A stretch of DNA of 64,000 nucleotides from Clostridia bacterium (GTDB lineage Bacteria > Bacillota > Clostridia > Oscillospirales > CAG-272): positions 62,001-126,000 of the forward strand of contig JAFTYG010000003.1 in assembly GCA_017461365.1 (NCBI GenBank). The letters are read 5' to 3'. Position numbers and translations under genes: made by a program. This document shows, piece after piece, positions 17,438 to 25,055 of the stretch. The notes under the pieces are model-generated. The model saw nothing but the letters and a program-made list of their open reading frames with translations, had not been told where the DNA came from and searched no databases. Each line of letters opens with the position of its first letter. The first letter of the stretch is position 1.

Positions 17438-17799
17438 ATGTCCGAAGATCATATTTTTATAGGTGCGTATAATGAAGGTAAATGCATCGGACTTGCCATT
17501 ATGAAACACGAATGGTTCAAATATATGTATTTGTATGACTTGAAAGTAAACAGTGCTTACCGAGGTAAAGGTATTGGCGATATGCTTATTGATAAATGCA
17601 AAGAAGTAGCGTTTTTACACGGCTATCGAGGCGTTTATACGCAAGGACAGAAAATAATCTCGAAGCGTGTAAGTTCTACTTAAAATGCGGATTTCAGATT
17701 GGTGGAGTCAATACTTTTATTTACAACGGAACGTCGCAGGAGGATAAGAAGGACATCTTTTTCTATATCGATACGTATATGTCTCAATGTAATGGATAG
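17438..17799 (+). pseudogene. GNAT-family N-acetyltransferase remnant (5' truncated and frameshifted)
   Basis: The first frame (17438 to about 17650) encodes the middle of a GNAT fold resembling streptothricin acetyltransferases: GAYNEGKCIGLAIM, a YLYDLKVN strand and the acetyl-CoA loop YRGKGIGDMLIDK. The match then jumps to the +2 frame (TENNLEACKFYLKCGFQIGG ... DIFFYID), which carries the C-terminal half. A missing base near 17647-17650, where CAG is directly followed by AAAATAATC, explains the switch. About 60 N-terminal residues expected for the family are absent and no ribosome binding site precedes the first ATG. The gene is therefore probably dead, although its promoter is intact. Confidence 0.75.
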
Positions 17800-17932
17800 C
17801 AATGAGGATGGCAAACGCTTTTGGACAAACCGAGGTTGGGATAAGAATGACTTTCTCAGCTTTTACAGCAAATCGATTACGGATAAAGAAAATTTGCCTT
17901 TGTTTGAGTCAAAACAACAAATTACTAATTGA
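17792..17932 (+). pseudogene. Short C-terminal gene fragment, possibly acetyltransferase-related
   Basis: A 46-codon frame overlapping the end of the GNAT remnant by 8 bases encodes a charged, aromatic-rich piece (GKRFWTNRGWDKNDFLSFYSKS). FWxxRGW followed by FLxFYSK looks like the end of a GNAT protein, but the fragment is too short to be sure. No ribosome binding site is seen. Most likely debris from the same decayed region. Confidence 0.3.
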
Positions 17933-17967
17933 CAATGATACGTAAGATACATAAGGGAGAACAACGA

Positions 17968-18555
17968 ATGAGTAATAAAATAAGATGCAGTTGGCTAAAT
18001 TTGAACAATGAGGTGTATGTCAAGTACCACGACGAAGAATGGGGGCGCCCTTTGTATGACGACAGAAAGCTCTATGAGCTTTTGATTTTGGAATGCTTTC
18101 AGGCGGGGCTTTCTTGGGAATGTGTCTTAAATAAGCGCGAAAAATTCCGCGCTGCCTTCGATAACTTCGACATTAACAAAATTGTTGCATATGACGATAC
18201 GAAAAAGCAGGAGCTTATGAATGATCCCAGTATTATCCGCAACCGCTTGAAGATCAACGCCGCAGTGAATAACAGTGTCGTTTTCAAGGCAATTCAGGAT
18301 GAATACGGCTCATTTTCAAACTACATATGGTCGTTTACCGACAATAAGGTAGTTATAGAGGAATTTACCGTAAGAACGACATCTCCGCTGTCTGATGCCA
18401 TCTCAAAGGATCTGAAAAAGCGCGGTATGACCTTCGTAGGCTCAACTATAATTTATTCCTTCTTGCAGTCTATGGGTGTAATAAACGGACACTCAAAAGA
18501 TTGTATGTGCTACCGTGCTTGTTTTGGAAAATACCGAAATTCTTTCATTTCGTAA
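17968..18555 (+). CDS. tag: DNA-3-methyladenine glycosylase I
   Basis: 195 residues. Tag removes 3-methyladenine from alkylated DNA. The zinc-snap residues are all visible: the Cys of RCSWL, the His of YHDEEWG near residue 21, and GHSKDC at the C-terminus. The helix-hairpin-helix core with LFELL-type FQAGLSWECVL and the NRLKINAAVNN segment are typical. An upstream in-frame ATG at 17929 exists, but AAGGGAG at 17953-17959 correctly spaces the ATG at 17968. It sits in a region of gene fragments and may itself be an accessory gene. Confidence 0.92.
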   Translation: MSNKIRCSWLNLNNEVYVKYHDEEWGRPLYDDRKLYELLILECFQAGLSWECVLNKREKFRAAFDNFDINKIVAYDDTKKQELMNDPSIIRNRLKINAAVNNSVVFKAIQDEYGSFSNYIWSFTDNKVVIEEFTVRTTSPLSDAISKDLKKRGMTFVGSTIIYSFLQSMGVINGHSKDCMCYRACFGKYRNSFIS

Positions 18556-18685: not shown

Positions 18686-19357
18686 ATGAAAATGAAATTG
18701 TTATTAAATGCACTTATAAAATTTATAGTCGGTCTTGTTCTTGTGGGTGCATTAGTCTTTCTTCCGGCAGGTAGCTTTGGTTACATAAACGGTTGGTTGT
18801 TTATCGGCTTATTGTTTATTCCTATGCTCATTCTCGGAATCGTTCTTTTTATAAAAGCTCCCGATTTACTTGAAAAGCGACTTGGTGCAAAGGAAAAGGA
18901 GAGCACACAGAAAGGCGTTGTTGCGCTTTCTGGGATAATGTTTATCGGCGGCTTTATTGTTGCAGGACTTGACTTTCGCTTGGGTTGGTCGCACGTTCCG
19001 ACTTGGGTAGTTATCGTTGCTTCTGTTATACTGCTTGTTGCTTACGCTCTTTATGCCGAGGTTATGAAAGGAAACGCATATCTTTCAAGGACTATCGAGG
19101 TGCAAGAAAATCAAAAAGTTGTCGATACAGGGCTTTACGGTATTGTCCGTCATCCGATGTATGCTGTAACAATATGGCTCTTTCTTGCCATTCCCGTGGT
19201 GCTTGGTTCTTGGTGGTCACTCCTTTGCTTTGTGCCTTACGTTGCCGTTATTGTCATTAGAATACTGAACGAGGAAAAGGTGCTTGAACAAGGGCTAAAA
19301 GGTTATGCAGATTATAAAAAACGTGTAAAATACAGAATTTTACCATTCATTTGGTAA
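18686..19357 (+). CDS. Isoprenylcysteine carboxyl methyltransferase-family membrane methyltransferase
   Basis: 223 residues with about five transmembrane helices (near 5-27, 30-53, 75-95, 103-123 and 155-190). The C-terminal region GIVRHPMYAVTIW followed by NEEKVLEQGLKGYADYKKRV is the S-adenosylmethionine-binding signature shared by ICMT, PEMT and related phospholipid methyltransferases (RHPxY and EExxL). The bacterial substrate is unknown; lipid or small-molecule methylation is most likely. The ribosome binding site is weak. A short open remnant, 18579-18689, ends in a TGA overlapping this ATG; I cannot assign it. Confidence 0.8.
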   Translation: MKMKLLLNALIKFIVGLVLVGALVFLPAGSFGYINGWLFIGLLFIPMLILGIVLFIKAPDLLEKRLGAKEKESTQKGVVALSGIMFIGGFIVAGLDFRLGWSHVPTWVVIVASVILLVAYALYAEVMKGNAYLSRTIEVQENQKVVDTGLYGIVRHPMYAVTIWLFLAIPVVLGSWWSLLCFVPYVAVIVIRILNEEKVLEQGLKGYADYKKRVKYRILPFIW

Positions 19358-19417: not shown

Positions 19418-19440
19418 ATATCGGGATTGACAGCCGATAT
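19418..19440 (+). promoter_or_regulatory. Operator-like inverted repeat around the -35 box
   Basis: ATATCGG (19418-19424) and CCGATAT (19434-19440) form a perfect 7-bp dyad with a 9-base centre that contains the -35 hexamer TTGACA (19427-19432). No T-run follows, so it is not a terminator. A repressor bound here would block RNA polymerase at the TerB/BrxD/helicase operon. Confidence 0.55.
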
Positions 19441-19455
19441 TTGATATGGTAAAAT
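19427..19455 (+). promoter_or_regulatory. Sigma-A promoter of the TerB-BrxD-helicase operon
   Basis: Consensus TTGACA (19427-19432), 17-base spacer ending TATGG, TAAAAT (19450-19455). It lies 35 bases before the first gene of the operon. Confidence 0.82.
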
Positions 19456-19489
19456 ATTATAATAAGAATTTTGCAAAAAGGAGGAGCGT

Positions 19490-21106
19490 ATGGATAACAA
19501 AAATTCAAGAAAAAAAGAGCTTGACGATTTTTGGGATATATCCGAGCTCATTCCCCGAAAAAGCGATAGCTTTGGTCATCCTAAATCAACGGACACCGTT
19601 GAGATAGTAGCCGCTCCAAAAAGCACGGAACTCTTCGACAAAGAAAGCAGTACCTTAATAAAACGCTATATTCCGCCTCACAGTGGCAATTCAGAGCTCA
19701 GCGCTAAAGCGCAGTTTGACGACGTGGAGAGCTATGCTCCCGATGCCTCACTGATACACAGAGTAACTGTAAAAAAGCATAAAACAGCGTATAATTATTA
19801 CGGAGCGTTTTTGAAGGACGCGATAAATTATATGGATACCCGCGGAACGCCTTGTGATTATATTCCGTTTTTCTCATACGTTCCGCAATACGACCAAATG
19901 AATGACGAACAGCGAGCGTATTATTTTTGGTTTCGCGAGAACGCAAGGCGCGGTAATTTTATAAAGACAGATCAAGGATACCTTTTTCTGTATGTATTCG
20001 AGCTTTTAAATTTAGGGAAGCGGTTGAACGTAAAGGAAACACAATATATCCTTATGTCACTCTGGAACGAATACAACGGTGTCTTTCCCGCAATATCTTC
20101 AAAGCTTGCCGATTGGATATGTGACTACAGTCTTCTACACCATCTTTCTCCGCCCGTAAATCTCAGCTCTAATATCATAAAGAAGGTCATATCACTGAAA
20201 GAGTTTTATATCAGCCTTCCAAAAGGAGACATGAAAAGATGCGCGCAGACGCTTATGTGCTATTGCTCATCGTATGATTACCGATCAAGCAAGTTTTATA
20301 CGGACCAAAACAAGGAGCTTTTTGACACACATATTTTAGGTGCGCTTACAGTAGCCGTAAGATACTATTCGCAAGACGGCAACATCCTTTCAGGGCTCAA
20401 TTTCGGAGACAGCACCATATCAAGGGACGTTTACTCGGGAGCCGTTTGCGTGTCCGACGAGAAATACCGTATTGAGGTCGACTTTTGCTCCTTTTCGCGT
20501 TCTAATGAATTACGATTCTTTGTAGGCGATATTGTAAGGTATTCGGAAAATAAGCTGAGAGCTTATATCGGTGTAAAATCAAAAATGACTGTATATTCGG
20601 TTACAGTAGAACTGAGAAGGCTTATAGACGAATATTTTACGTCGTCATTACCGTCCAAGCATCAGATAAAACAAAAAGCCACCGAAAAGCATGAGTATGA
20701 TGTTCTTTATGATGTACCCATAAAGCCACTGTCTTTATCCGAAGCGGCAAAAATAGAGGCGGGATCTTGGGAGACAACAAAGGAACTTATTTCAGCGTTT
20801 GACGAAAGCATTGATGCGCTTGACATATTTGAAGAAAAGACCGTGCCCGAGATAGATAGCAGAGAAGAGTCCGCCGCGGCGGCTGACGGAGACGTTTTTG
20901 AAAAATACAGAGCCGTCATTATTTCCTTGATAAACGGAAACCTATCTGCAATTTCCGATTTTGCCAAAGCTACGGGAAAAATGTCCGACAGCATAATTGA
21001 CGAAATAAATGAAATTGCATATGATAGCTTCGGAGATCTTCTTATTGAGGATGACGGTACGGGAAATTACTCTGTAATAGATGATTACAAATCTTACTTT
21101 ATTTAA
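19490..21106 (+). CDS. TerB-N/TerB-C domain protein of a helicase-ATPase cluster
   Basis: 538 residues, soluble. After a low-complexity N-terminal 100 residues comes a TerB_N domain (about 105-310) with PFFSYVPQYDQMNDEQRAYY and FWFRENARRGNFIKTD. The C-terminal part (about 413-538) resembles TerB_C: LSEAAKIEAGSWETTKELI, then IDEINEIAYDSFGDLLIED. I see no clear central TerB metal-binding helical bundle between them, only a less conserved 310-410 stretch. These domains occur in Ter-type stress systems and in clusters with ATPases and helicases. AAAGGAGGAG precedes the ATG. It is the first gene of a three-gene operon, 15 bases before the ATPase. It is likely a scaffold or sensor; this is inference. 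Confidence 0.8.
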   Translation: MDNKNSRKKELDDFWDISELIPRKSDSFGHPKSTDTVEIVAAPKSTELFDKESSTLIKRYIPPHSGNSELSAKAQFDDVESYAPDASLIHRVTVKKHKTAYNYYGAFLKDAINYMDTRGTPCDYIPFFSYVPQYDQMNDEQRAYYFWFRENARRGNFIKTDQGYLFLYVFELLNLGKRLNVKETQYILMSLWNEYNGVFPAISSKLADWICDYSLLHHLSPPVNLSSNIIKKVISLKEFYISLPKGDMKRCAQTLMCYCSSYDYRSSKFYTDQNKELFDTHILGALTVAVRYYSQDGNILSGLNFGDSTISRDVYSGAVCVSDEKYRIEVDFCSFSRSNELRFFVGDIVRYSENKLRAYIGVKSKMTVYSVTVELRRLIDEYFTSSLPSKHQIKQKATEKHEYDVLYDVPIKPLSLSEAAKIEAGSWETTKELISAFDESIDALDIFEEKTVPEIDSREESAAAADGDVFEKYRAVIISLINGNLSAISDFAKATGKMSDSIIDEINEIAYDSFGDLLIEDDGTGNYSVIDDYKSYFI

Positions 21107-21121
21107 TCACGGAGTGTAAAA

Positions 21122-22483
21122 ATGAATAACAGTGTTGATATACAAAAAATACCTAAAAGAGTGCTCAACTCTCTTTTGGTGTCTGTTTCTGCTGGTGTTG
21201 TGCCGAGAATAGGCGCGCCGTATATAGCGATTGGACGCAAGGACGAGATAGCGGCGCTTCTTTCAGATCTTGAGCAGGTAAACGAGGGCAGCGGAACGAT
21301 GCGCTTTATAATCGGACGTTACGGAAGCGGAAAAAGCTTTCTTATGCAGCTTATCCGTGGGTACGCTCTTGAGCGCAATTTTATCACGGCAGATGCAGAC
21401 CTGTCTCCTGAGCGCAGACTTTACGGAGCATCGGGAAGTGGCGTAGCCACCTACCGCGAGCTTATAAAAAACATGGCATCGAAATCATCTCCCGACGGCG
21501 GCGCCCTCCCGAAAATGATCGCCAGATGGATCGAGCTTTTGCGTTCGGATATTATAGCCGAGGGAATAGATCCCGACAGCGACAGATTTAGTTCGAGACT
21601 TAATTCTCTTGTTTCCGAAAAACTGCGGGAAGTTGAATTTATGGTCGGCGGATTTGATTTTTCAAGAGTGATCACAGAATATTACCGTTCGTTTATCGAA
21701 GGCAACGATGAAAAACGAAGCGCTTGTCTGCGTTGGCTCAGAGGTGAGTATTCATCAAAGACAGAGGCGCGTTCCGCTCTCGGTTTTTCGGTGTCGGTCA
21801 TTATTGATGATGACAACTGGTATGATTTTATCAAGCTTTGGGCGATCCTTGTAAGATTTATCGGATACAGAGGTCTTATTGTATTTATAGACGAATGTGT
21901 AAATCTCTATAAGATAACCCACAGAGTGAGCCGCGAAAACAACTATGAAAAGATACTTTCCATGTTCAACGATACACTGCAGGGAAGAGCGCCCGGACTT
22001 GGCTTGATACTCGGCGGTACACCTCAGTTTATGGATGATCAAAGGCGCGGACTTTTTAGCTATGAAGCGCTAAAGAGCAGACTTTGCGACAGTCGTTACG
22101 CTCTTGACGAATACAGAAATTATATCGGCCCTGTTATAAGGCTAAAACGGCTTACCGACGATGAGCTATTTGCACTTATATCCCGTATTACTAAGCTATA
22201 TGCCGTAAATTACGGTGTTACTCCGAGAATAAGTGAGACGGAAATGGTTCGTTTTCTCGAAATATCGCTCTCCCGCGCAGGCGCAGATCAGCTCATAACT
22301 CCGCGTGAAATGCTTAGGGACTATATGACAGTGCTTAACATTCTGATGCAAAACGAAAATGTGAAATTCGAGCAGATAATAAATAAGGCTGTTTTGAATG
22401 GTGATACCGAGCAAAAAAACGAAGAAAAATCGGAGACACCTGCGCGCTCCCCGGAATTTTCAGCGGAGGATATAGAATTTTAA
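21122..22483 (+). CDS. BrxD-type (DUF2791) P-loop ATP-binding protein
   Basis: 453-residue ATPase of the BREX ATP-binding (BrxC/BrxD, DUF2791) group. The N-terminus IPKRVLNSLL, Walker A GRYGSGKS at 65-72, the ADLSPERRLYG strand, Walker B GLIVFIDECVNLYK near 250-263 and the sensor region LILGGTPQFMDDQRRGLFSYEALKSRL are in the expected order. In BREX type 2 and related systems such an ATPase is encoded beside an Lhr-like helicase (BrxHI), as here. No methylase (PglX), PglZ phosphatase or BrxA/B is found in the window. The ribosome binding site is CGGAGTG; the C-terminal 25 residues are acidic and probably disordered. Confidence 0.85.
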   Translation: MNNSVDIQKIPKRVLNSLLVSVSAGVVPRIGAPYIAIGRKDEIAALLSDLEQVNEGSGTMRFIIGRYGSGKSFLMQLIRGYALERNFITADADLSPERRLYGASGSGVATYRELIKNMASKSSPDGGALPKMIARWIELLRSDIIAEGIDPDSDRFSSRLNSLVSEKLREVEFMVGGFDFSRVITEYYRSFIEGNDEKRSACLRWLRGEYSSKTEARSALGFSVSVIIDDDNWYDFIKLWAILVRFIGYRGLIVFIDECVNLYKITHRVSRENNYEKILSMFNDTLQGRAPGLGLILGGTPQFMDDQRRGLFSYEALKSRLCDSRYALDEYRNYIGPVIRLKRLTDDELFALISRITKLYAVNYGVTPRISETEMVRFLEISLSRAGADQLITPREMLRDYMTVLNILMQNENVKFEQIINKAVLNGDTEQKNEEKSETPARSPEFSAEDIEF

Positions 22484-22495
22484 GGAGGCCCTTGT

Positions 22496-24730
22496 ATGAC
22501 CGAAGCAGATATTATATTCGAAAGATTTCCGTCATTTATCCGCGAATACGTTTATTCACACTCATGGGATAATCTCAGACGTGTGCAAATAGAAGCCGCA
22601 AAGACAATACTTGACAGCGAAAACAATCTGCTTTTGACCTCCTCTACCGCAAGCGGAAAAACAGAAGCCGTATTTTTTCCCATACTGACGAAAATATGCG
22701 ATGAGCAAGCGTCGGGAATTTCGGTGCTGTATATCGCGCCGCTGAAAAGTCTTATAAACGATCAATTTTTCAGAATTGAAGATCTATTGAAAGAGAGCGG
22801 CATCAAGGTCACGCATTGGCACGGCGACGTTGCGACATCAAAAAAGAAAAAACTCTTACAAAAGCCCGAGGGAATATTGCAGATAACGCCCGAGTCGCTC
22901 GAAGCAATGCTTATCAACCGTTCAAGCGATATACCGAGGTTGTTTTCCGAGCTTCGATTTGTGATCATAGACGAGATACACTCTTTAACGGGATCGGACA
23001 GAGGAAATCAAATACTCTGCCAACTCAACAGAATAGAGCGGCTGACAAACAATTCTCCGCGAAGAATTGGGCTTTCCGCAACCGTCGGAAATCCCGAGCT
23101 TGCCGCAAAATGGCTCAGCGCAGGAAGCGACAGAGTGACCGATGTACCTATTTTTCCCGAAGAAAAAATAAAATGGCGATTGGGACTTGAACATTTTTTT
23201 ATTCAAAACCGCAATTTTGATCAAACGCAAGGCAACGCCGTAAAGGAAAATTCTCAAACTGCAACAATGGACGCAGGTTATGAATATCTCTACGATTGCG
23301 TAAAAGACAGAAAGTCCATAGTATTTTCCAATTCGAGAGAAGAAACCGAATACGTTTGCGCTACGTTGCGACAGATAGCCAAAAAGCGTAACGAGAACGA
23401 TGTGTTTCTCATTCACCACGGAAATCTTTCCGCATCCTTGCGTGAAGAAGCCGAACTAAAAATGAAGGATGACGAGAGCTTTGCTGTTACCTGCGCTACA
23501 GCTACAATGGAGCTCGGTATTGACATAGGAAGGCTTGAACGTATCGCGCACGTTGATTTTCCAAATTCCGTATCGGGATTTTTGCAACGTCTCGGACGCT
23601 CAGGAAGACGGGGACAGCCTCCCGAAATGATGGCGGTATTCAGAGAGGAAGAGCCACTGCCAAACGCTCCGCTTCCACAGATAATTCCTTGGAATCTGAT
23701 AAGGGCGATAGCAATTATACAGCTTTATATTGAAGAGCGTTTTGTAGAACCGCCATACAGTAAGAAGGAGCCGTTCAGCCTTTTGTTCCACCAAACGCTA
23801 AGCATACTTGCTGCGTCGGGAGAACTGAAAGCATCGGAGCTTGCAGATCGAATACTTAAACTGCCTCCGTTTGTCAACGTTTCTAAAGAAAAATACAAGA
23901 TCTTGCTTGTTTCTATGTTAAACAACGGTTTTCTTGAAATGACAGATGAAAAAGGCCTGATTGTGGGAATGTCGGGGGAGCGCTTATTGAACAGCTTTAA
24001 ATTCTACGCCGTTTTCAATGACAGCGAGGATTTTACCGTTCGATGCGACTCCGAAGAAATAGGAACGATAACCACACCTCCTCCTATTGGTGACAGATTT
24101 GCTTTAGCGGGACGTGTGTGGGAGGTTTTGGAGCTTGACGTACAGCGACGTCTTGTTTATGTAAAAAGTGTCGAGGGAAAAATGGAAGTATCGTGGCCTG
24201 GAGAATACGGCGCGATACACACGCGTATTCTTGAACGCATGAAACAGGTGCTGTCCGAAGATACGGTGTATCCGTATTTGAAAGATAATGCAAAGCGCAG
24301 ATTGATTCTTGCAAGACACGTCGTAAATAATACAAACATCAAAGATCATTCACTAGTACATCTTGGAGGCTTTACATGGTGTCTGTTCCCATGGCTCGGA
24401 ACAAAAGCATTTCGGGCATTGCGTAAAGCAATAGGAAATATAGCGTCGGATTTCGGTGTTTCGGGCATTGATTACGAAGGATGTTATTTCATAAAATTCA
24501 GAATGGAGAGAGGAACACCTTACGAATTTTTGAACTGTCTGTATGCAGAGCTGAGATCATCCGTCGGTACTCCGCAAATGCTTGTGCGCGCCTCTGAGCT
24601 TCCCGTTTTTGAAAAATACGATCAGTATATTCCCGGGGAATTGTTAAGAAGTGCATATGCCGTCGATAAGCTCGATGTTGCAGAGGCCGCGGAGAGGACG
24701 TTACAGATACTTAACGAGTATCGCAATTGA
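22496..24730 (+). CDS. Lhr/BrxHI-like DEAD/DEAH-box helicase
   Basis: 744-residue superfamily 2 helicase. Motif I TASGKT is at 51-56, motif II DEIH at 159-162, motif III SAT near 193, and motif VI RLGRSGRRGQ near 365-374. The order of SLTGSDRGNQ after DEIH and the FPNSVSGFLQRLGRSGRR segment place it in the Lhr group rather than with UvrB or RecQ. The 380-744 half carries a winged-helix-like and Lhr-core-like C-terminal region. It follows the BrxD-type ATPase by 12 bases with TAAGGAGG as ribosome binding site, matching the brxD-brxHI pairing. No terminator hairpin follows; the ilvA promoter begins about 45 bases downstream. Confidence 0.87.
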   Translation: MTEADIIFERFPSFIREYVYSHSWDNLRRVQIEAAKTILDSENNLLLTSSTASGKTEAVFFPILTKICDEQASGISVLYIAPLKSLINDQFFRIEDLLKESGIKVTHWHGDVATSKKKKLLQKPEGILQITPESLEAMLINRSSDIPRLFSELRFVIIDEIHSLTGSDRGNQILCQLNRIERLTNNSPRRIGLSATVGNPELAAKWLSAGSDRVTDVPIFPEEKIKWRLGLEHFFIQNRNFDQTQGNAVKENSQTATMDAGYEYLYDCVKDRKSIVFSNSREETEYVCATLRQIAKKRNENDVFLIHHGNLSASLREEAELKMKDDESFAVTCATATMELGIDIGRLERIAHVDFPNSVSGFLQRLGRSGRRGQPPEMMAVFREEEPLPNAPLPQIIPWNLIRAIAIIQLYIEERFVEPPYSKKEPFSLLFHQTLSILAASGELKASELADRILKLPPFVNVSKEKYKILLVSMLNNGFLEMTDEKGLIVGMSGERLLNSFKFYAVFNDSEDFTVRCDSEEIGTITTPPPIGDRFALAGRVWEVLELDVQRRLVYVKSVEGKMEVSWPGEYGAIHTRILERMKQVLSEDTVYPYLKDNAKRRLILARHVVNNTNIKDHSLVHLGGFTWCLFPWLGTKAFRALRKAIGNIASDFGVSGIDYEGCYFIKFRMERGTPYEFLNCLYAELRSSVGTPQMLVRASELPVFEKYDQYIPGELLRSAYAVDKLDVAEAAERTLQILNEYRN

Positions 24731-24802: not shown

Positions 24803-24808
24803 ATTATG

Positions 24809-25055
24809 TGCTATGATAGGGAGCGGTAGGAGAATACGCTTTACAGAGAGCCGTTGGTAGGTGTGAAACGGTATGCGCGCTCTTACTAAATCACCCTTGA
24901 GCCTGCTGTCGAGAGTCTTATGACAGGTAGAACAGCACGTTTTCCTGCGTTAAAGGATGATGTATTTTATGTACAGATAAGCTTTTTTAAGCAAAAGAGT
25001 GGTACAGCGAAAGTTTTTTACCTTCGTCTCTTTATCCGAGAGACGAAGGTTTTTT
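24809..25055 (+). promoter_or_regulatory. T-box leader of ilvA-ridA
   Basis: This fills the 358-base gap before ilvA. The T-box AGAGTGGTACAGCGA is at 24996-25010; it reads ACAGCG where ACCGCG is usual. The terminator is CCTTCGTCTCT (25021-25031) with AGAGACGAAGG (25039-25049) and six T. A stem I with ACAGAGAG (AG bulge) lies at 24840-24890. I could not place the specifier codon with certainty; isoleucine or threonine is expected from the gene controlled. Confidence 0.88.

Follow-up and report, generated by a model that had tools for sequence, protein, structure and literature searches.

Judged by their sequences, three adjacent genes of a Clostridia bacterium (lineage Bacteria; Bacillota; Clostridia; Oscillospirales; CAG-272) are Shango, an already published anti-phage system composed of the proteins SngA, SngB and SngC. 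The genes lie in a 64,000-nucleotide stretch of assembly GCA_017461365.1 (contig JAFTYG010000003.1, positions 62,001 to 126,000), which we call the window and number from its first base. The general expectation for defence systems is that they are patchy and mobile and that their genes stay together. In the family of this host, by contrast, most sampled genomes retain a known system even as its genes disperse. We consider it probable (roughly 60%) that Shango is here a resident DNA-surveillance machine and not a mobile defence cassette. The simplest account is that the system was fixed early in much of the host family, has been kept for the joint activity of its parts and no longer forms a linked cassette. 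Retention despite dispersal suggests that selection acts on this joint function rather than on a transferable unit. These findings also suggest that annotation based on gene clusters counts too few of the defence systems that have dissolved in this way; if so, tools that require gene clustering would miss them.

The three genes and the promoter-like site upstream of them are as follows.

19427..19455, + strand: promoter-like site 5′ of sngA, TTGACA and TAAAAT separated by 17 bases, the latter preceded by TG (a consensus match alone, at 11 of 12 positions)
19490..21106, + strand: sngA, TerB_N/TerB_C protein of 538 amino acids (open reading frame call, Pfam, PADLOC)
21122..22483, + strand: sngB, BrxC/BrxD-family ATPase of 453 amino acids (open reading frame call, Pfam, PADLOC)
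22496..24730, + strand: sngC, Lhr/BrxHI-type superfamily 2 (SF2) helicase of 744 amino acids (open reading frame call, Pfam, PADLOC, structure model)

The original prediction, made from the sequence alone, had described three tightly spaced genes behind a consensus promoter. All three reading frames are indeed intact, share one strand and are separated by gaps of 15 and 12 bases, and they are likely to form a single operon. The promoter fared less well. A good consensus match does precede sngA, but such sites are no commoner across the region (11) than in shuffled sequence (mean 12.0). The guanine plus cytosine content of the sng genes (41-45%) is close to that of the window (43%).

The trio is assigned to Shango because the best PADLOC model of each gene is the matching Sng component, with E values of 7.5e-45 for SngA (residues 92-534), 2e-165 for SngB and 4.9e-239 for SngC. 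Pfam agrees with the protein classes first proposed, placing TerB_N (PF13208, 2e-17) and TerB_C (PF15615, 1.3e-9) in SngA, BrxC_BrxD (9.2e-153) in SngB, and DEAD (2.8e-31) and Helicase_C (5.5e-18) in SngC. The suspected link to defence was therefore correct, whereas the view that the combination was uncharacterised was not, as published Shango has the same three protein families. The Shango of E. coli is reportedly the subject of work by Millman and co-workers from 2022.

As described in extracts of Johnson et al. (2023; PMC10250203), Shango combines an ATPase and a helicase with a TerB-like protein and occupies a core defence hotspot of Pseudomonas aeruginosa. When cloned, the trio of P. aeruginosa PA14 modestly changes plating, by 10-100 fold, for many phages though not all, and the same extracts cite anti-phage activity of Shango from E. 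coli. According to extracts of other papers, SngC has been placed with BrxHI, DruE and DpdJ in what may be a distinct SF2 clade (PMC12278908), DefenseFinder found Shango among the systems of rumen genomes (PMC13356809), and restriction-modification systems colocalize with Shango outside defence islands (PMC10924106). Shango is not mentioned in the extracts of PMC11834463, and our search of the open-licence literature found no account of a dispersed or family-wide Shango, or of a Shango mechanism. Whereas the usual setting of Shango is a defence hotspot, the window trio has housekeeping neighbours and no recognised defence island. It also differs from the PA14 and E. coli systems in being widespread in its host family, where in many relatives the genes are non-adjacent or joined to addBA or alaS.

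A protein query with SngB found the gene in 204 of 295 sampled genomes of the family (69%), in 110 of the 151 better genomes and in 55 of 71 genera. It is mostly single-copy, as 198 of these genomes give one match and six give two, and the weakest of the 204 best matches (5.6e-69) is stronger than that of the window SngB to the BrxD model. In the same 295 genomes, the control proteins PheT, AddB and Cas1 were found in 278, 272 and 45, respectively. Presence is often all-or-none by genus. Among the 44 genera with at least three genomes, SngB occurs throughout 13 and is lacking from eight, giving 21 uniform genera compared with a mean of 6.1 and a maximum of 14 in 2000 shuffles. In addition, the identity of SngB to the window protein tracks that of PheT (Spearman 0.73) across 75 genomes; these, like the 114 genomes considered below, are the ones in view in both result listings, are not a random draw and may have missed some members; further rows were set aside ahead of the counting.

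By the original prediction, universal conservation of the trio as housekeeping genes in the class, with no link to defence loci, would have counted against it. This applies in part: the system is widespread in the family but not across the class, where the PADLOC model for SngB matched 30 of 245 genomes, 16 of them (the window's genome included) more strongly than 1e-130. Nine of the other 14 matches, with E values from 1e-56 to 1e-67, probably represent BrxD. In a sample of the order, the SngB model matched 44 of 197 genomes, and in 41 the match is stronger than 1e-150. The family counts come from a protein query and the class counts from a PADLOC model, which are different queries.

SngB and SngC are retained together even where they are not neighbours. 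Across the 295 family genomes, both proteins are found in 196, SngB only in eight, SngC only in eight and neither in 83 (Fisher 8e-54), with SngC counted as present at E values below 1e-20 and 13 weaker matches scored as absent. Placement was compared in 114 genomes: the two genes are adjacent in 84, lie 104 kb apart on the same contig in one and are on different contigs in 29. Both the SngB and the SngC sides were read in 15 of the 30 non-adjacent genomes, and unrelated genes occupy the partner's expected place in every one. For one further genome (G249) the SngA and SngC sides were read; there SngB and SngC both stand at contig ends, so they are possibly adjacent. The remaining 14 were judged by position alone, with SngB at a contig end in G038 and near one in G056 and G167.

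SngA was found in 28 of the 30 genomes without shown SngB-SngC adjacency, and it stays beside SngB in the searched genomes of genera g67, g40, g14, g66, g44, g64, g10, g71, g52, g56 and g38 (g and L numbers are our labels for genera and loci). Six of the eight genomes of g53 carry SngA, SngB and SngC on three contigs; in another, SngA lies near SngB on the opposite strand and SngC is elsewhere, and in the last SngA was not found. On a tree of 93 SngB sequences, built by a quick method that gave long-branch warnings, at least five changes of gene arrangement are seen; the outgroup is eight sequences from the order sample, all with SngC within 1.5 kb of SngB. We also counted gene order in the window and 67 related loci, taking those in which both genes were called. 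SngA and SngB lie within 100 bases of each other in 57 of 59 such loci, and SngB and SngC in 51 of 59, which indicates a gene order beyond chance.

Some features of the rearranged loci can be noted separately. In L108, L118 and L124 (g67 and g66), the separated SngC gene is next to or near a gene that belongs to one cluster; in L108 and L118, Pfam identifies this gene as an FkbM-type methyltransferase. Directly behind SngB, L043:4240-5334 and L045:9136-10248 encode membrane proteins of similar appearance, with 364 and 370 amino acids; the former lies between SngB and SngC, whereas the L045 contig ends with no SngC found. Judged by translation (no family scan), the genes that separate SngB from SngC or lie behind them appear miscellaneous in L043, L045, L050, L051, L062, L065 and L071.

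In genus g12 the trio is joined to the genes for AddAB, the AddAB/RecBCD machinery of double-strand-break resection. The end of the SngC gene overlaps the start of addB, and addA comes next, giving the order SngABC-addB-addA (for example, L090:10356-17053). The overlap is 4 bases in L090, L091 and L095 and 4 to 8 bases in L127-L132, being larger in L129 through start choice; L091 and L127 are one contig. In eight of the nine g12 genomes the positions place SngC next to addB, which in one of them is cut at the contig end; the ninth genome is G275. AddB differs from the Sng proteins in its wider occurrence (272 of 295 family genomes), and outside g12 none was seen beside SngC when the listed rows were compared by eye. 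Among the rows listed, the AddB of g12 is 27-34% identical to AddB of other genera. Natural pairings of this kind (SngAB with SngC unlinked; SngABC with AddBA) open the mechanism of Shango to direct test.

Other partners occur as well. The order SngAB-alaS is present in g40 (four genomes, alaS following SngB at 13, 14, 3 and 31 bases), g10 (one genome, 9 bases) and g66 (two genomes, 273 and 115 bases). The gene of 871-916 amino acids behind SngB in genera that have no SngC there had been a candidate for a new effector and was rejected, as it encodes alanyl-tRNA synthetase (Pfam, three members). SngA is followed by a penicillin-binding protein in the two g53 genomes read, and the ilv genes come after the trio in the window, as they do at some nine related loci.

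The separated genes are under purifying selection. Ratios of nonsynonymous to synonymous divergence (dN/dS), computed by the Nei-Gojobori method, are 0.087-0.124 for SngA (g53), 0.057-0.087 for SngB and 0.048-0.063 for SngC, with dS often near saturation and several pairs not computable. Likewise, the motifs are intact in 21 of 21 SngB and 21 of 21 SngC proteins from loci L107-L146, six g12 loci included; for SngC, 18 fit a first pattern and three have DEVH in place of DEIH. The domains and motifs of the window proteins, all encoded on the + strand, are listed here.

19781..20143, + strand: TerB_N domain of SngA, residues 98-218 (PF13208)
20753..21058, + strand: TerB_C domain of SngA, residues 422-523 (PF15615)
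20861..21103, + strand: C-terminal region of SngA that may form a winged helix, residues 458-538
21314..21337, + strand: Walker A of SngB, GRYGSGKS, residues 65-72 (sequence and 51-row alignment)
21890..21895, + strand: acidic pair D257 E258 of SngB, which we take to be Walker B (invariant in the 51-row alignment)
22646..22663, + strand: motif I (Walker A) of SngC, TASGKT, residues 51-56 (invariant in a 53-row alignment)
22970..22981, + strand: motif II of SngC, DEIH, residues 159-162 (D159, E160 and H162 invariant in the 53-row alignment)

Within Walker A of SngB, residues G65, Y67, G68, S69, G70, K71 and S72 are invariant and R66 is nearly so. The predicted structure of SngA has a mean predicted local distance difference test score of 84.5. 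Foldseek returned no match for this model at an E value of 0.001, and a second look gave weak rows alone, mostly winged-helix. Single-sequence search found no solved relatives of SngA or SngB, and profile searches gave weak matches only. SngC was compared with two helicase families, Lhr (Mycobacterium Lhr, 5v9x) and MrfA/YprA (6znp). Its model aligns along its length with Lhr (template modelling score 0.72, about 21% identity), so the fold is Lhr-like throughout. However, SngC falls below every NCBIfam helicase cut-off among the matches listed, the best being TIGR04121 at 212.3 of 850 bits, a model for Lhr and ligase-associated repair helicases, and it differs from Lhr in being a component of a three-gene system.

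We infer the following sequence of events from these features. SngA, through its TerB domains and possible C-terminal winged helix, would assemble with SngB on abnormal or foreign DNA, for example phage replication intermediates or stalled forks. The pair would then load the Lhr-like translocase SngC, which could remodel or strip that DNA. Since Pfam reveals no nuclease domain in any of the three proteins, we propose that the exposed ends would be handed to a host nuclease, most likely AddAB, for degradation or repair. A single activity of this kind might serve both phage defence and genome upkeep. More tentatively, and short of what we would expect to prove right, the Shango genes may have been fixed, unlinked and rewired into housekeeping operons, in g12 directly together with AddAB, with SngABC and AddAB acting as one break-processing and anti-phage complex.

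Several observations weigh against a resident, family-wide role for Shango. Of the 13 family genomes in view in the order sample, only 6 carry SngB, a poorer share than in the family search, with which the result agrees genome by genome. SngB is missing from 16 of 71 genera, eight of them with at least three genomes, and the sng genes are therefore dispensable. Cas1 also exceeds its shuffles in uniformity by genus (25 genera compared with a mean of 16.9 and a maximum of 24); its uniformity arises via absence, and no genus has Cas1 throughout. The tracking of PheT by SngB is good but imperfect. Locus L071 appears split while its near relatives do not, so some splits may be assembly faults, and many genomes have at least two SngC matches, either pieces or paralogues, none of them beside SngB in the 15 genomes read. 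SngA is the fast partner, with 28-53% identity to the window protein compared with 58-82% for SngB. For the pair L065/L069, dS is 1.37 in SngA but 0.29 in SngB and 0.42 in SngC, which suggests that SngA alleles are exchanged as in defence genes. The linkages to alaS, a penicillin-binding protein, an M42 peptidase and ahcY give no DNA theme and may be chance. Finally, the proposed hand-off to AddAB draws on the gene order of one genus together with the Pfam result for the trio.

These points bear on three other explanations. The trio might be an ordinary horizontally acquired Shango cassette that is common in the family, its separated copies reflecting repeated gain, loss and rearrangement. This would fit the anti-phage activity tested in P. 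aeruginosa (in the extracts of PMC10250203), the flanking genes, which mostly differ between genera, and the fast, perhaps exchanged SngA. SngC-type helicases are also carried on 687 plasmid records at an E value of 1e-40, a count that may include BrxHI. However, SngB has no match at 1e-10 among 50,697 phage records, its presence is broad, mostly single-copy and often all-or-none by genus, and it tracks PheT; its co-retention with an unlinked SngC would also be unexpected for a transferable cassette. We regard this explanation as unlikely. Conversely, the complex might derive from Shango and now serve DNA repair only, no longer acting on phages. Lhr is a repair-linked helicase, and the Lhr-like fold of SngC, the addBA overlap in g12, the housekeeping neighbours in the window and the strong purifying selection would all suit such a role. 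The genera that lack SngB, the behaviour of SngA and the continued closeness of the trio to the Shango models argue against it, and we judge it quite improbable.

The original prediction had related the trio to the bacteriophage exclusion (BREX) system, with a TerB-type protein in the place of PglX and PglZ; a BREX-like system of this kind, or the remains of a BREX locus, is the third explanation. The kinship that it noted is real, as BREX contains related ATPase and helicase families and the second-best PADLOC models are BrxD for SngB (3.3e-48) and BrxHI for SngC (2.2e-130). Nevertheless, the Shango models fit both genes far better, and SngB scores 160.9 bits against the NCBIfam BrxD model, below its cut-off of 350. 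No BrxC was found, because the one PF10923 (BrxC/D) match in the whole assembly is the window's own SngB. In the window, neither PglX, PglZ nor any other BREX gene was detected among the 48 other open reading frames searched with PADLOC at 1e-10. A BREX remnant is thus rejected at this locus, and we give a BREX-like origin almost no credence compared with Shango as a resident system.

The window lies inside a 212 kb contig of a 2.4 Mb assembly in 92 contigs, and the nearest named relatives are mostly metagenome-derived ruminant-gut Clostridia or Oscillospiraceae assemblies. Upstream of the trio are pheT, a dehydrogenase gene, pheS, gpmI, a broken acetyltransferase-like gene, and glycosylase and methyltransferase genes. 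Downstream are a T-box leader with threonine ammonia-lyase, followed by a Rid protein, acetolactate synthase, ketol-acid reductoisomerase, pantothenate kinase and dihydroxy-acid dehydratase. Given these housekeeping surroundings, the proposed edge of a defence island is rejected, and no second clear defence gene was found among the 48 other window reading frames of at least 100 amino acids (PADLOC, 1e-10). The same scan gave three matches of one ClpB-like protein, encoded at 27-2342, to which the DolB and PDC-M37B matches belong, and one PD-T4-2_B match (2.1e-31) not traced to a reading frame. The genes just upstream had been called broken or accessory; the acetyltransferase-like frame is broken, but the glycosylase and methyltransferase frames are intact. 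The features flanking the trio are as follows.

17441-17798: acetyltransferase-like remnant, presumably of the GNAT type, with a broken frame, between gpmI and the glycosylase gene (three-frame reading)
17929-18555: methyladenine glycosylase, intact open reading frame
18686-19357: PEMT/ICMT-type methyltransferase, intact open reading frame
24804-25034: T-box leader before the threonine ammonia-lyase gene (Rfam RF00230, 97.6 bits, E 7.8e-21)
25020-25050: terminator-like hairpin of 13 pairs

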